From Phaeocystidibacter luteus (GTDB lineage: Bacteria > Bacteroidota > Bacteroidia > Flavobacteriales > Schleiferiaceae), in NCBI RefSeq assembly GCF_008933115.1, contig NZ_WBVO01000006.1, forward strand, positions 1-64,000: 64,000 bases of DNA. The letters run 5' to 3'. Every line of letters starts with the position of its first letter. The first letter of the stretch is position 1. The translations under genes and the position numbers were made by a program. A model generated the notes under the pieces. It was given only the letters and a program-made list of their open reading frames with translations. It was not told the origin of the DNA and made no database searches. This document shows, one piece after another, positions 816 through 32,408 of this stretch.

Positions 816-900
816 AAGTCCGCAGTGGGCTAGCGTCTTCTTTTCTTCACAGTTTCATTGGTTTGTTCAAGGTTGCTGTTCACTGCGGACTTTTTCTTTT
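816..900 (+). terminator. Long-loop inverted repeat followed by T-rich tract
   Basis: Perfect 12-bp arms (816-827 and 881-892) separated by 53 nt, with a T-rich run (TTTTTCTTTT) directly after the right arm. Its position just after the thioredoxin-like gene suggests a terminator, but the loop is unusually large for an intrinsic terminator. Confidence 0.45.
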
Positions 901-1200
901 TGTATGCTTGCCTGTCGGCAAACAAAGGATCCGCCGATAGCGGAAAGGATTCTTCGCCTGATATCGAAGAAAAGGATCATTCGACTTCGTCTCATGAAAG
1001 GCGTAAATCCTGAGTATGTGCTTCGCTATCCAGTGAAGTACTAATTTCCCCATGAGCAATCAGAATATAGTAGATACGCTAAGCCCATTGCTTCGACTAT
1101 TGACTTTTCAGTGCCGAAAGGCACAGAATCCTTTCCGCCGAATGGAGGATCCTTTTACTGAAGAATGAAGTAATCCTTTTATTTTTCGCCCGTCCGCTGA
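901..1200. repeat. Gene-free stretch with nested inverted repeats
   Basis: No credible gene lies here. Two outer arms (924-952 and 1126-1154) are imperfect inverted copies sharing AAAGGATCC and GCGGAAAGGATTC blocks. Between them sit smaller hairpins: TTCTTCG/CGAAGAA at 950-971 and GTGCC-GAAA-GGCAC at 1111-1124. This looks like a structured interspersed element of REP type rather than random spacer; copy number elsewhere in the genome cannot be judged from one window. Confidence 0.5.
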
Positions 1201-1205
1201 TTCCC

Positions 1206-1213
1206 TACCTTTG
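1206..1213 (+). promoter_or_regulatory. TAnnTTTG promoter element of rocD
   Basis: TACCTTTG matches the Bacteroidota -7 consensus exactly and ends 18 nt before the ATG at 1232. No clear -33 TTG is visible at the expected 19-bp distance, only a T-run. Confidence 0.55.
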
Positions 1214-1231
1214 CTCAAAATCACAAGTACC

Positions 1232-2497
1232 ATGGAAACTATGACACGCACAGACGAGCTTATCGCTCTAGAAGACAAGTACGGAGCCCATAATTACCAC
1301 CCACTACCCGTGGTTCTTGAAAAAGGTGATGGTGTTTTTGTTTGGGACGTAGAAGGAAAGAAGTACTACGATTTCTTGAGCGCGTATAGCGCCGTCAATC
1401 AAGGTCATTGTCATCCACACCTCGTGGAAACGATGACGAAGCAAGCTCAAAAACTCACACTTACCTCAAGAGCCTTTTACAATGCAGAGCTCGGTAAGTT
1501 CGACAAGTTCATGAGCGAGTATTTCGCTTTCGACAAAGTGCTCCCGATGAACTCTGGTGCCGAGGCGGTAGAAACGGCTTTGAAGCTTTGTAGAAAATGG
1601 GGACATGAAGTGAAAGGTGTAAATCCTGCTGCCGGAAAGATTATCGTTTGCGATCAAAACTTCCACGGTAGAACCACCACCATCATTTCATTCTCTTCCG
1701 ATCCAGATGCGAAAGACGGTTACGGTCCATATACTCCCGGATTCGAAGTAATCCCTTATAACGATTTAGCTGCATTAAAGAATGCTCTAAAAGATGAAGA
1801 AGTAATCGGATTCATGGTTGAGCCTATTCAAGGCGAAGCGGGTGTAATGGTTCCGGATGCCGACTACATTCCAAAAGCTGCTCAAATGTGTAAAGATGCC
1901 AATGTACTCTTCATTGCTGATGAAGTACAGACAGGCATTGCGCGTACAGGTAGCCTACTCGCTGTTTGTGGCAACTGCTCTTGTGAGAACAAGTGTGAGC
2001 GCCAAGAATCGTATACCCGACCAGACATCCTGATCCTCGGCAAAGCACTTTCAGGCGGCATGTACCCAGTTTCTGCAGTACTAGCGGATGACGACATCAT
2101 GCTCACTATTCGTCCAGGTCAACACGGAAGCACATTCGGCGGAAACCCTGTTGCTGCACAAGTTGCCATTGCAGCACTTGAAGTGGTATCAGATGAAAAC
2201 CTCGCCCAAAATGCTCGCAAACTCGGCGAAATGTTCCGCTCTGAAATGCAGCGCATCATTGATAGCAGTGATTTGGTGACGAAGGTTCGCGGAAAAGGAC
2301 TTCTGAATGCGATTGTTATTAACGACACACCGGATAGCAAGACCGCTTGGAACATCTGCGTAAAGCTTGCAGAGAATGGCCTACTTGCCAAGCCAACGCA
2401 TGGAAACATCATTCGTTTTGCACCACCGTTGGTAATGACAGAAGAGCAATTGATGGATTGCGTCTCTATCATCGAAAAAACACTGAGTGAGTTCTAA
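1232..2497 (+). CDS. rocD: Ornithine aminotransferase (ornithine--oxo-acid transaminase)
   Basis: Class-III PLP aminotransferase of 421 residues that converts ornithine and 2-oxoglutarate to glutamate semialdehyde and glutamate, in arginine/ornithine catabolism and proline synthesis. Recognisable features are the N-terminal [13 protein letters not shown] segment typical of ornithine aminotransferases, [19 protein letters not shown], the ADEVQTG block and LGKALSGG with the PLP lysine at about residue 271. Unusual is an insertion just before that region with four cysteines, [10 protein letters not shown] (residues 246-255), where other family members have a few non-cysteine residues; this could bind a metal or form disulfides. 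ATG 1232 is preferred over TTG 1211 because the latter overlaps the TACCTTTG promoter element. A strong terminator follows. Family call is secure. Confidence 0.92.
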
Positions 2498-9421: not shown

Positions 9422-10015
9422 CTATCGGATTTGAGCATGAATATAGTCAATCGCAGCTTGTACCTTATCGATTCCAGTGCGCGATAACCTCTGACTCAAT
9501 GTACCCTGAGAAATTCCTAATGATTCAGCCAATTGGGTTTGCTTCAAGTGTGGATGATTGATCTTGTACAAAATCAACTCAGCCTGACTCTGCGTCCAGT
9601 TTTCTACAATGAACGTGAGCAGTCCGAGCGTAACATTCAGACTTTCATCTATACCCTCTACTCCACTGTCAATCCGAATACCTGACCTCGTCTCTTCGAA
9701 TAGTCGCCCAGCTCTTACGAGCGCATCTCCCGAAGCCTCCGCAATTCTCTTGTAGCCATAGTCAACCTCTCCCACTGCAATCGCCATCCGAGCATCCTTA
9801 TTGGCAGTTGATTTCAAGAACGTTTTGATTTCCAGTGCGGCGGTCAACACTTCATTTTGATGCACTTTGGCCTGAAACCCATCACCCCGATAGATATCCC
9901 AATCATCCGAATCGTTGGTGTACTTGTTCAACACCTCTTTTAAGCCGAGTTGCCAAACGGAATATTTGCCTTGTGTTGATTTGATGACGTCGCCGAGGAG
10001 GATTGCGGATTTCAT
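9422..10015 (-). CDS. SatD-family protein with C-terminal HTH
   Basis: A 197-residue cytoplasmic protein. The N-terminus MKSAILLGDVIKST is the SatD-family signature, followed by IYRGDGFQAKV and a VGEVDYG strand that together resemble a degenerate nucleotide-cyclase-like fold. The C-terminal ~60 residues hold a helix-turn-helix (LKQTQLAESLGISQGTLSQRLSR). SatD was named from a streptococcal secretion/acid-tolerance locus, but its biochemical activity is unknown to me. It lies directly upstream of, and nearly overlaps, the DUF3307 gene. A G-rich motif sits 16-43 bp upstream of its ATG. Confidence 0.7.
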   Translation of the reverse strand: MKSAILLGDVIKSTQGKYSVWQLGLKEVLNKYTNDSDDWDIYRGDGFQAKVHQNEVLTAALEIKTFLKSTANKDARMAIAVGEVDYGYKRIAEASGDALVRAGRLFEETRSGIRIDSGVEGIDESLNVTLGLLTFIVENWTQSQAELILYKINHPHLKQTQLAESLGISQGTLSQRLSRTGIDKVQAAIDYIHAQIR

Positions 10016-10020
10016 GGTGG

Positions 10021-10078
10021 GAGATTTGGAGGGTTAGAGGGTTAGAGGGTTGGAGGGGTGGAGGGTTGGAGGACTGGA
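10021..10078 (+). repeat. G-rich octamer repeats, G-quadruplex motif
   Basis: Runs of GGG spaced by TTAGA or TTGGA (10031-10058 fits G3-N5-G3-N5-G3-N5-G4). The motif is immediately upstream of the satD-like start and 77 bp before the 54-bp array. Confidence 0.7.
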
Positions 10079-10092
10079 TAGAGAATGATAGA

Positions 10093-11073
10093 ATGAAGTT
10101 GGTAATAATTGAAGAAAACATGTCGGATGACTTGTCTTGCGCGCAGTGCTTTTTTCACCCAAAGGCGCTTCCTTGCCGAGGTACGAGGCCTTGTGCGCAG
10201 CACCATATTCGCCCCAAAGCGAATCCTTGCCGAGGCACGAGACCTTGCGCGCAGCGCCATATTCGCCCCAAGGCGGATCCTTGTCGAGGCACGAGACCTT
10301 GCGCGCAGCGCCATATTCGCCCCAAGGCGAATCCTTGTCGAGGCACGAGGCCTTGTGCGCAGCGCCATATTCGCCCAAAAGCGAATCCTTGCCGAGGAAC
10401 GAGGCCTTGCGCGCAGCGCCATATTCGCCCCAAAGCGAATCCTTGCCGAGGCACGAGGCCTTGTGCGCAGCACCTTATTCGCCCCAAGGTGAATCCTTGT
10501 CGAGGCACGAGGCCTTGCGCGCAGCACCTTATTCGCCCCAAGGCGAATCCTTGTCGAGGCACGAGACCTTGCGCGCAGCGCCATATTCGCCCCAAAGCGA
10601 TTCCTTGTCGAGGCACGAGACCTTGTGCGCAGCACCTTATTCGCCCCAAAGCGAATCCTTGTCGAGGCACGAGACCTTGCGCGCAGCGCCATATTCGCCC
10701 AAAAGCGAATCCTTGTCGAGGCACGAGACCTTGCGCGCAGCGCCATATTCGCCCAAAAGCGAATCCTTGCCGAGGCATGAGACCTTGCGCGCAGCACCTT
10801 ATTCGCCCCAAGGCGAATCCTTGCCGAGGCACGAGACCTTGCGCGCAGCGCCATATTCGCCCCAAAGCGAATCCTTGTCGAGGCACGAGACCTTGCGCGC
10901 AGCGCCATATTCGCCCCAAAGCGAATCCTTGTCGAGGCACGAGGCCTTGTGCGCAGCACCTTATTCGCCCCAAGGCGAATCCTTGTCGAGGATCGAGACC
11001 TTGTGCGCAGCACCTCACAACACGTCAACGGAAAGGAGGCGGTGTAGTCCACGAAGTATGTGCTATGGTTTAA
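10093..11073 (+). CDS. Possible Cys/Arg-rich tandem-repeat protein encoded by the 54-bp array
   Basis: Reading the array in this frame gives a 326-residue, very basic protein made of 18-residue repeats of the type HIRPKANPCRGTRPCAQR, each with two cysteines. It starts at ATG 10093 (alternative ATG at 10120) with a short unique leader and ends with a unique tail. Five reading frames are open across the array, so openness alone proves nothing. In favour, five of the seven recurrent polymorphisms between units fall on third positions of this frame and are synonymous. The same positions are also third positions of one minus-strand frame (10155-11018, GRIWRCAQGLVPRQG repeats). No promoter match, signal peptide or known domain is seen. 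Treat as hypothetical. Confidence 0.25.
   Translation: MKLVIIEENMSDDLSCAQCFFHPKALPCRGTRPCAQHHIRPKANPCRGTRPCAQRHIRPKADPCRGTRPCAQRHIRPKANPCRGTRPCAQRHIRPKANPCRGTRPCAQRHIRPKANPCRGTRPCAQHLIRPKVNPCRGTRPCAQHLIRPKANPCRGTRPCAQRHIRPKAIPCRGTRPCAQHLIRPKANPCRGTRPCAQRHIRPKANPCRGTRPCAQRHIRPKANPCRGMRPCAQHLIRPKANPCRGTRPCAQRHIRPKANPCRGTRPCAQRHIRPKANPCRGTRPCAQHLIRPKANPCRGSRPCAQHLTTRQRKGGGVVHEVCAMV
10135..11015. repeat. Array of sixteen 54-bp tandem repeats
   Basis: Sixteen full units of exactly 54 bp (10135-10998) plus a partial seventeenth to about 11015, with no spacers. The first unit is degenerate, the others differ at a few positions. Each unit contains ATTCGC-N6-GCGAAT, able to form a hairpin, and a TTGCGCGCAG or TTGTGCGCAG block. 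Recurrent polymorphic positions within the unit are 6, 14, 17, 27, 30, 42 and 54; positions 14 and 17 are partly linked. All units keep 54 bp, a multiple of three. It is not a CRISPR because repeats are contiguous without unique spacers. Confidence 0.95.
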
Positions 11074-11258: not shown

Positions 11259-12491
11259 ATGAAATACAACCTTCTCTTCCTACTTCTAGCCTTCGGATCA
11301 AGCGTGTTCGGACAACTAAATGCCGATAGCCTTTTTGTAGAAGCGCGCAAGCTCGCCGAAAATAAAGAGTACGATTCCGCTCGCACGCTTCTCATGCCCG
11401 CGTTACGCGAGTATCCCGCATATCACGATATCAGAAACTATATCGCCCGAACGTACGCTTGGGAGGAGAAGTACGACGAAGCTCTGGCGTACTACAAGGC
11501 AACTCTGTCGAACGATATGTCAAATACCGATGCCTGGTGGGGCATTGGGGATGTCTATTTATGGTCTGAGCAATACCTCGAAGTAATCAATACCATGAAT
11601 GAGGCGTCAGATGCGTTGCCCGATTCATCCGAGATCCGAAGCGAAATAGGATTCCGAAAGGCAACCGCCTATTACAAACTGCGTGAATTCCCCGAAGCCC
11701 TAGAAGCACTAGAAAACACAGAGGGTGGCCGCAACGATAGGTTGCGTCAGACCGTCCTGCTCCGACTCGTGAACCACAGTGTGGACGTCCTAGGCTCGGC
11801 CGAATTCTTTAGCGAACAGTACGACCCCATGTATTACGGTACGGTTCAGGTTGGACAAAGCACCAAGTACGGAGTAGGTATCGCTCGATTCAATACCGCA
11901 TACCGATTCGGTGAAACTGGATACCAGGCGGAGGTTGACCTCTACCCCATCATCTCAGAAACGGTCTACGGCTACATCAACTACGGTTTTTCTCCCAGCG
12001 CTCAAGTCTTTCCACAACATCGCGTAGGTGGTGAAATTTACTCGGCCGTTGGAAGCAACTTTGAAGCTTCTCTCGGTGTGCGCTATCTGTACTTCGGCCC
12101 GGGAAGCGATGTCACCATGTATACCGGCTCTGTCAACTACTATCTCCCAAAATACTTGTTCTCATTCCGACCATTTATCACGCCTCAAGAAGACGGTACA
12201 GACTTTACCGGCGACCTTCTCGTTCGTCGCTATTTAAACGATAGCAGAAGTTGGGTCACCCTCCGAGCGAGTTACGGTTTCTCGCCAGACGCACGTCGAA
12301 TTCAAGTTGGCGCCGGTGAGGTCATTGAAATCCTTGAAACCACAAGCTTTGGGGCAGAATGGCAACAAGCGATCACCCAAGAATGGCTCTTCGTTCTCAA
12401 CTTTACGTATACCTATCAAGAGCTGCCATTTGATCCGGGAAACTTTTATTCCATCTATGCACCTCTAATCGGAATCAAGCGTCTCCTTTAA
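11259..12491 (+). CDS. YaiO-family outer-membrane beta-barrel protein with TPR domain
   Basis: A 410-residue exported protein. Residues 1-18 are a signal peptide (ending FGQ). Residues about 22-150 contain TPR-like helices (ARKLAENKEYDSARTLL, ARTYAWEEKYDEALAYY, WWGIGDVYLWSEQYLEVI). From about 165 to the end, alternating beta strands with aromatic residues form an outer-membrane barrel of the YaiO type. YaiO-like proteins are found near polysaccharide or glycosyltransferase loci but their role is poorly defined. A near-consensus TACCTTCG element at 11231-11238 lies 20 nt upstream of the ATG. The downstream hydrolase gene begins 23 nt later. Confidence 0.8.
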   Translation: MKYNLLFLLLAFGSSVFGQLNADSLFVEARKLAENKEYDSARTLLMPALREYPAYHDIRNYIARTYAWEEKYDEALAYYKATLSNDMSNTDAWWGIGDVYLWSEQYLEVINTMNEASDALPDSSEIRSEIGFRKATAYYKLREFPEALEALENTEGGRNDRLRQTVLLRLVNHSVDVLGSAEFFSEQYDPMYYGTVQVGQSTKYGVGIARFNTAYRFGETGYQAEVDLYPIISETVYGYINYGFSPSAQVFPQHRVGGEIYSAVGSNFEASLGVRYLYFGPGSDVTMYTGSVNYYLPKYLFSFRPFITPQEDGTDFTGDLLVRRYLNDSRSWVTLRASYGFSPDARRIQVGAGEVIEILETTSFGAEWQQAITQEWLFVLNFTYTYQELPFDPGNFYSIYAPLIGIKRLL

Positions 12492-21633: not shown

Positions 21634-21664
21634 ACCTCGCATTCGCGAGGGTGATGAGGGATTC
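21634..21664 (-). repeat. tRNA-Val 3'-end-like fragment with adjacent hairpin
   Basis: The 16-base block GGGTGATGAGGGATTC at 21649-21664 is identical to the 3' end of tRNA-Val (as read on the plus strand). It is preceded by an A-run and a CCTCGC-ATTC-GCGAGG hairpin, mimicking the terminator/tRNA arrangement at 27877-27930. It appears to be a relic of a tRNA 3' end. Confidence 0.6.
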
Positions 21665-21791
21665 CGCTCGTGCCTCGCGGCATCCGGGGAGGGAACCTTC
21701 ATTAAGAGAAAGCCTGCACTCCGCCATCCGGCGAAGTGCTACGGCTTTTTTTACGCCCCTGCACTTACAAGCAAGCTTGACGTGCGGGCAT

Positions 21792-21817
21792 AAAAAAAGC
21801 CTCGCTTTCGCGAGGCT
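21792..21817 (-). terminator. Copy of tRNA-Val terminator in left repeat
   Basis: On the minus strand AGCCTCGC-GAAA-GCGAGGCT followed by seven T. Duplicate of the functional one at 27877-27902. Confidence 0.8.
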
Positions 21818-21825
21818 TCCTCTTG

Positions 21826-21869
21826 GTGGGTGATGAGGGATTCGAACCCCCGACCCTCTGCTTGTAAGG
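21826..21869 (-). pseudogene. Truncated tRNA-Val fragment (3' half)
   Basis: The discriminator base to the anticodon-stem 3' side of tRNA-Val(TAC) is present; the 5' half is missing and replaced by AT-rich island DNA. Not functional. Confidence 0.9.
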
Positions 21870-27592: not shown

Positions 27593-27740
27593 GAGTGATG
27601 AGGGATTCCGCTTATGCCTCACGGCATCCAAGGAGGGGGATCCACTTCAAAGAAGCCCCTCGCTCCGCTCGGAATGTGCTTTTTTTATGCCTACTCATCG
27701 AAGCAGGCTTCAATCTCAGTCCAAATAAGTTCCGGTTGAC
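27593..27740. repeat. Diverged copy of tRNA-flanking repeat family
   Basis: Starts with GAGTGATGAGGGATTC, one mismatch to the tRNA-Val 3'-end block, then GATTCCGCT-TATGCCTC-ACGGCATCC, a diverged copy of the segment at 27746 onward, with a hairpin/T-run about 50 bp later. Together with the 211-bp repeat it forms an imperfect tandem family. Confidence 0.55.
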
Positions 27741-27743
27741 GAT

Positions 27744-27954
27744 GGATTCCGCTCGTGCCTCGCGGCATCCGGAGAGGGAACCTTCATTAAGAGAAAGCCT
27801 GCACTCCGCCATCCGGCGAAGTGCTACGGCTTTTTTTACGCCCCTGCACTTACAAGCAAGCTTGACGTGCGGGCATAAAAAAAGCCTCGCTTTCGCGAGG
27901 CTTCCTCTTGGTGGGTGATGAGGGATTCGAACCCCCGACCCTCTGCTTGTAAGG
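27744..27954. repeat. Right 211-bp direct repeat of tRNA-Val island
   Basis: Twin of 21659-21869. It supplies the 3' half of the intact tRNA-Val and its terminator, and marks the right attachment site, adjoining the integrase remnant. Confidence 0.92.
27877..27902 (-). terminator. Terminator of tRNA-Val
   Basis: Minus-strand AGCCTCGC-GAAA-GCGAGGCT with a seven-T tail, a textbook intrinsic terminator. Confidence 0.88.
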
Positions 27955-27986
27955 CAGATGCTCTGAACCAACTGAGCTAATCACCC
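27912..27986 (-). tRNA. tRNA-Val (anticodon TAC)
   Basis: Full cloverleaf on the minus strand: acceptor GGGTGAT/ATCACCC, D-arm TAGCTCAGTTGGTTCAGAGC, anticodon loop TTACAAG giving UAC, T-arm with TTCGAAC and discriminator A. Island attachment falls in the anticodon arm. Confidence 0.96.
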
Positions 27987-32295: not shown

Positions 32296-32408
32296 TAATA
32301 TTGCAGCCCAATTCGGAGGCAGGTACCAAAGAATTGCTGACGTGGGGTTAACCTCTGGCAAGAGTTGTGAATGTTAACTCGCGATTGAACACATTAATAG
32401 TCAGAAAG
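32296..32408 (+). promoter_or_regulatory. rplS upstream leader region
   Basis: TAATATTG (32296-32303, one mismatch to TAnnTTTG) begins about 105 nt before the rplS ATG. A short GAGGC/GCCTC hairpin with T-rich tail lies just before (32263-32281) and may end the trmD transcript. The remaining leader contains GGTTAACCTCTGGC and GTTGTGAATGTTAACTC segments that may pair. L19 autoregulatory leaders are described in Firmicutes; whether this one acts so is unknown. Confidence 0.35.

Follow-up and report, generated by a model that had tools for sequence, protein, structure and literature searches.

A 54-bp intergenic tandem array in Phaeocystidibacter luteus best read as a REP/BIME-like mosaic of tagged hairpins

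Main finding

In the window, the stretch of 64,000 nucleotides of Phaeocystidibacter luteus DNA that was analysed, a 54-bp tandem array lies in the intergenic gap between two divergent genes, and its best reading is that of a REP/BIME-like mosaic of tagged hairpins, a variant of the tagged extragenic palindromic repeats. The array is likely to be a non-coding intergenic minisatellite, in which a string of three short modules from a population of tagged extragenic hairpins has been amplified. The members of this population appear to share a 5′ CTT (often CCTT) tag, a short stem and often a loop of the GNA or GNNA type, and to stand head to tail in one orientation per array. Among the genomes searched, the population is in our judgement abundant in its own genome only, and the array itself probably has no specific job at its own locus.

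Structure of the array

TRF reports 16.2 copies of the 54-bp unit, with 91% matching and no indels, in an array with a GC content of 61% (Table 1). The sixteen contiguous repeats described in the initial annotation are thereby confirmed, and the copies follow one another without the unique spacers of a CRISPR array. The seven recurrent polymorphic positions of that annotation were also recovered, at unit positions 5, 13, 16, 26, 29, 41 and 53, which is one less in each case than in its numbering. The ATTCGC/GCGAAT hairpin that had been assigned to every unit is present, but is exact in only 12 of the 16 units, and two more hairpins per unit, GYGC-GCA-GCRC and GYC-GA-G-GCA-C-GA-GRC, had been missed. 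The unit thus consists of three hairpin modules of 14, 22 and 18 nt (B, C and A, in this order), with the CTT strand of the array being the + strand.

Modules A and B carry a CTT head, whereas the head of module C is CAT in ten units, CTT in five, where A16T converts the one into the other, and TTT in unit 1. Module B is Watson–Crick paired in 12 of the 16 units, and its C5–G13 form is found in nine units, the T5–A13 form in four and mixed forms in three. Module A is a hairpin with a GNA loop once a tandem G.A mismatch is allowed, tandem G.A pairs being stabilising; 14 of its 16 copies match this pattern (the GA-type pattern hereafter) exactly and the other two match with one mismatch.

Table 1. 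Coordinates of the array, its modules, its neighbours and other repeats in the window.
Feature	Coordinates	Strand	Remarks
Small CCTT-headed hairpin cluster	899–1001	-	Four modules, three with stems of at least 5 bp
Small CCTT cluster	1130–1237	+	Four members, one with a stem of at least 5 bp
Left neighbour, SatD-like protein	9422–10015	-	Divergent; winged-helix match; scores for PF16264 and PF13412 only just exceed their cut-offs
8-bp tandem array	10026–10072	.	TTGGAGGG; second repeat in the intergenic gap of the 54-bp array
54-bp array	10136–11011	+	TRF
Module B, example copy	10190–10203	+	14 nt; CTT + GYGC-(GCA)-GCRC; unit positions 1–14
Module C, example copy	10204–10225	+	22 nt; head + ATTCGC..GCGAAT hairpin; unit positions 15–36
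Module A, fully paired example	10280–10297	+	18 nt; CTT + GTC-[GA]-G-(GCA)-C-[GA]-GAC; unit positions 37–54
Partial 17th unit	11000–11014	+	Module B, T–A form
Right neighbour, TPR and YaiO β-barrel protein	11259–12491	+	Divergent; PF19413
221-bp stretch, first copy	21649–21869		98% identity to the second copy, 6.1 kb apart
221-bp stretch, second copy	27734–27954		Overlaps the tRNA-Val gene
tRNA-Val gene	27909–27986		
L19-Flavobacteria ribosomal protein leader	32349–32376		RF03130 (Rfam)

Pairing was also examined across the units. T5 goes with A13, a stem pair of module B (Fisher P = 0.036, uncorrected), but a stronger association (P = 0.008) links positions 13 and 16, which do not pair with each other in a stem, so that linkage between units could also explain the 5/13 association. 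The stem pair 41/53 has no association across units (P = 0.61). The whole 54-nt unit has an ordinary folding energy (z of −1.5 and −1.4), and on their own modules A and B do not reach significance, whereas module C does (z of −8.9 and −5.8). At the gathering score, Rfam 15 has four matches in the window and none in the 54-bp array. As to other repeats, 8-bp arrays like AACCCTCT/TTAGAGGG recur in the genome (also at loci L017, L019, L061 and L064), as do arrays containing the TCCCGAATCGGCTTCGCCTCTCGGGAT hairpin.

Tagged hairpins across the genome

The scripts covered about 804 kb of the 3.21-Mb genome, to which 18 short loci were added, 14 of which were chosen by the left arm alone among 100 listed of the 130 GA-type matches in the genome and four of which came from another search. 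The sample is partly guided, as loci L016–L019 and L067–L069 were picked for holding module matches, and contig C12 was taken whole. In this sample, 10 of the 147 distinct sequences of the form CTT N3 C(GNA)G N3 have complementary arms, against 2.3 expected, and with the extra loci included the count is 18 of 164, against 2.6 expected. CTT ranks first of the 64 possible tags (10 paired; next 5) and GNA first of the 16 loop classes (10 paired; next 4). On contig C12 alone seven of 69 are paired, with 1.1 expected, and none is paired among 33 in the sample of the congener G030 or among 35 in that of the congener G031, where about 0.5 each would be expected.

A similar result is obtained with the GA-type hairpin. 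Without any tag, 14 of the 647 distinct 15-mers in the sample are fully paired, against 2.5 expected, whereas nine altered motifs give none to two fully paired sequences each, and the congener samples give one of 168 (G030) and none of 131 (G031). CTT directly heads seven of the 14 fully paired hairpins. When the CTT tag is required, full Watson–Crick pairing is found in 11 of 40 distinct 18-mers, compared with a shuffle mean of 1.5 and a maximum of six in 2000 shuffles. In all of these 11 the outermost pair is G–C, while two or three Watson–Crick forms are seen at the second, third and innermost pairs; an outer A–T form (ACC/GGT) is present in the list of fully paired GA-type hairpins. Genome-wide, the 130 matches to the GA-type pattern compare with 50 for a reversed control. 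Pair counts on a separate alignment (A1), in which four of four pairs had a two-sided change, were left unused as circular, since its 11 rows had been drawn from the fully paired GA-type list.

The tag itself was also assessed at the feet of GC-rich hairpins, where CCTT is the most enriched tetranucleotide in the sample (107 against 57.3; z of 6.5, the next being 2.8), and it lies outside the top six in the samples of both congeners. On contig C12 alone CCTT is only third (39 against 24.8). Triloop hairpins regardless of tag have no GNA excess, and runs of at least four spaced copies of a tetramer do not single out CCTT (27, against 63 for CTTC and 61 for GAAG).

The modules recur as strings. 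The same three-module string is single-copy on contig C2 (L068, about 10424–10478), yet is present in 16.4 copies at C27:3322–4207, and a longer ordered series, with modules beginning CCTTATTGACCGCC, CCTTGCGGCCGAAGGACG, CCTTGCGCATGCC and CCTTATC, is found with variants at several loci. The positions of 16 arrays or clusters were compared with ORFs of at least 100 aa, after removal of ORFs mostly within an array: all 16 lie between such ORFs, two of them with a partly overlapping ORF. The neighbouring genes are divergent at six loci, point the same way at nine and are convergent at one.

Distribution among genomes

Of 88 genomes of the family, only the own genome matches a 171-bp query from the array, the 87 others giving no match, and the same holds for CCTTGCYGAGGNACGARGC, with a match in one genome of the 88. 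The chained pattern CTTGYRCGNAGYRCCTT occurs 38 times in the own genome, the control giving none. In a draw of 395 genomes from the order it matches three, namely the own genome and two with one match each, and in a draw of 395 from the phylum it matches eight, namely the own genome and seven with one match each, one of which is common to the order draw. The ten listed of the 38 matches comprise six distinct sequences, all complementary, in a pattern that also permits mispaired forms; of the eight single matches in other genomes two are complementary, as chance (one in four) predicts. A search for the module junction in 84,980 species genomes, a set that the own genome may lie outside, returned 27 stretches with one match each, none labelled as Bacteroidota, and these were taken as chance matches.

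Tandem repeats with a score of at least 100 make up 0.92% of contig C12 and 0.09% of the sample from G030, and the G031 sample has none. The best matches of the right-hand gene in G030 (58%) and G031 (37%) have no array alongside. The best match of the left-hand gene is about 10 kb off in G030 and on another contig in G031, so there is no exact empty site to compare. In G030 the matches of the two flanking genes are separated by about 10 kb with a 2340-aa ORF (L051, 44–9979), which places the 54-bp array at a synteny difference. A 664-aa G030 ORF from between these matches has its best match in the own genome elsewhere, at C1:807713–809548 (38%).

Origin and mobilisation

GNA loops and tandem G.A pairs lend stability to the CTT strand but none to its complement, so that the folded entity would be the CTT single strand, either ssDNA or RNA. 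The portion of PMC6479982 used here describes the GNA loop with a sheared G.A pair as a stable type in DNA. Copy number may have grown by replication slippage or unequal recombination, and the matching of the arms may be maintained by template switches within the hairpin as it is replicated, by an enzyme recognising the tag and the hairpin, comparable to the REP-processing Y1 transposases, or by both. Compensatory changes can come from a mutational process that creates or repairs the arms of a hairpin, according to the section of PMC8794818 consulted, where template-switch hairpins are described for RNA genes, unlike the tagged repeat arrays reported here. With some reserve, we also propose a candidate class of ssDNA hairpin elements whose conservation would be limited to the CTT tag and the GNA-type loop, any stem being allowed that pairs. 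This would possibly be a mobile vocabulary read by structure and not by sequence, its items joined head to tail, reused in different orders and handled by an enzyme.

A stronger form of the tagged-hairpin explanation, with which it overlaps, is that the hairpins are mobilised miniature elements, the CTT tag and hairpin being cut and pasted as ssDNA by a Y1 (HuH) transposase as REPs are by RAYTs. The genome holds three Y1_Tnp genes, each, as judged by eye, amid hairpin repeats of its own, and the 5′ tag beside the hairpin foot matches the layout of the TnpA-REP guide sequence, a tetranucleotide 5′ of the hairpin, in the part of PMC6006769 available here; there, the REPs of Bacteroidetes Y1 transposases (subclass 2.6) are said to have atypical structures. 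Against this, and in contrast to RAYT-associated REPs, the 1.5 kb on either side of each Y1 gene (three loci of about 3.3 kb) contain no exact CTT-GNA module and so point to no mobiliser; the hairpins flanking these genes look like other families, and an exact empty insertion site is not definable at the array locus. Mobilisation by a Y1 transposase is thus a possible but doubtful account.

The three RAYT-like Y1_Tnp genes (L053 15989–17890 on contig C1, L073 and L071) each have a hairpin repeat family of their own flanking them, and the gene on C1 sits between two arrays of 206/207-bp units. On contig C61 of the congener G031 (L072, about 1200–1450), a Y1_Tnp gene adjoins GAGCATCGGGTGG..ACCCGATG hairpins, a separate REP-like family.

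Alternative explanations

The array could also be a plain minisatellite, a 54-bp stretch with chance inverted repeats amplified by slippage, in which the hairpins would reflect GC-rich composition only. Slippage accounts for the array as such, the folding energies of the unit are ordinary, and both the 87 other family genomes without a match and the congener loci at the right-hand gene, which hold no such array, agree with it. Composition alone is at odds with a tag and loop style that returns at unrelated loci on stems of different sequence with complementary arms, as well as with a module string that is both single-copy and amplified, and we regard this explanation as improbable.

The initial annotation had put forward a Cys/Arg-rich repeat protein, and the corresponding + strand ORF (ATG at 10120, 317 aa, ending at 11073) is open through all units. 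Five of the seven recurrent polymorphic positions do share one codon phase, the third position of this frame, as that annotation had counted, but this is within chance (P of about 0.14 for five or more of the seven sharing a phase, whichever it is), and with all ten positions that vary in at least two units the count is six of ten (P of about 0.23). The third-position changes had been described as synonymous in the plus-strand frame. Of 19 distinct substitutions, seven are synonymous there where 5.5 would be expected (P = 0.285), and when the divergent first unit is set aside six of 13 are, where 3.7 would be expected (P = 0.12). In the sister array on contig C27, frames +1 and −2 have the highest synonymous counts, with seven of 16 against 5.6 (frame +1), seven against 5.4 (frame −2) and six against 5.0 (frame +2). 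The whole 54-bp array is open in three of the six frames, two of the plus strand (356 and 327 aa) and one of the minus strand (367 aa), and a further minus-strand frame (287 aa) ends 19 bases before the left end of the array. Unit lengths not divisible by three, which had been named beforehand, for relatives, as evidence against a coding role, are found in the same genome, where the sister arrays of similar modules have periods of 48, 53, 54, 55 and 154 bp (three of the five, 53, 55 and 154, not multiples of three).

Two further observations bear on the protein. Its frame matches the Pfam family PF24646 (45.4 bits against a cut-off of 28.1, E of 1.2e-11), with no single stretch passing; little weight was given to this score, because another frame of the array also exceeds the cut-off for the unrelated PF15689 (39.7 bits against 27), again with no single stretch passing, and the scores look like sums over repeats. 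The module common to the 54-bp and C27 arrays reads PCRGTRP in the proposed frame and likewise in a shorter ATG ORF of the C27 array (255 aa), but the longest ATG ORF of that array (366 aa) uses another frame and reads it as LPRHEAL/LPRNEAL. The unit is also unmatched in the 87 other family genomes. Coding was therefore dropped as the best reading on the six-frame synonymous test, the other open frames and the unequal sister-array periods, and a real repeat protein is very unlikely. The alternative of a structured repeat or minisatellite, which the initial annotation had also offered, is supported, and is extended here to a three-hairpin string of a genome-wide vocabulary.

A transcribed regulatory RNA array, or an insulator between two divergent promoters, would suit the divergent genes on either side and the strand-specific loop style, but is highly improbable given that neighbour orientation varies over the 16 loci and that G.T and A.C are equally frequent among one-mismatch CTT modules (19 each; 15–22 and 11–14 with four other tags), so that there is no sign, on this weak measure, of RNA wobble tolerance.

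Comparison with known systems

The tagged hairpins resemble REP/BIME elements, which in the part of PMC3733652 drawn on here are short hairpins of extragenic DNA that carry an unpaired tag on one end and occur in many copies per genome, with some families species-specific and some reiterated in tandem. Short hairpins in many extragenic copies are found here as well (all 16 loci between ORFs; GA-type matches well above the control). The tag differs, being CTT/CCTT and not GTAG or CGTC, and CCTT has no occurrence in the portions of PMC6006769 and PMC3733652 used here; the CGTC repeats apparently also lack a dedicated transposase (PMC3733652, same part). Unlike in REP/BIME elements, the stem sequences vary while the tag and the loop style persist, and the modules stand directly head to tail in one orientation. 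REPs lie mainly between unidirectional and convergent ORFs (same part of PMC3733652), whereas here six of the 16 loci are between divergent genes and one between convergent genes. Fungal and sponge mitochondria likewise have GC clusters and hairpin elements, short hairpins that accumulate in intergenic DNA according to the listings for PMC4478555 and PMC2800124, but these belong to organelle genomes and are likened by description only. Among the papers returned by our literature searches, none describes CTT-tagged GNA hairpins in its title or the beginning of its abstract.

Conclusions

Long open frames, a third-position bias and family scores summed over repeats can mimic repeat proteins in GC-rich hairpin arrays. 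Sequence and tag are the usual basis for grouping extragenic palindromes into families, whereas here a single tag, a single loop style and a head-to-tail arrangement are common to many different stems, in quantity in one genome among those searched. The array therefore offers a natural test of whether compensatory hairpin changes come from template-switch mutation or from a hairpin-reading enzyme.
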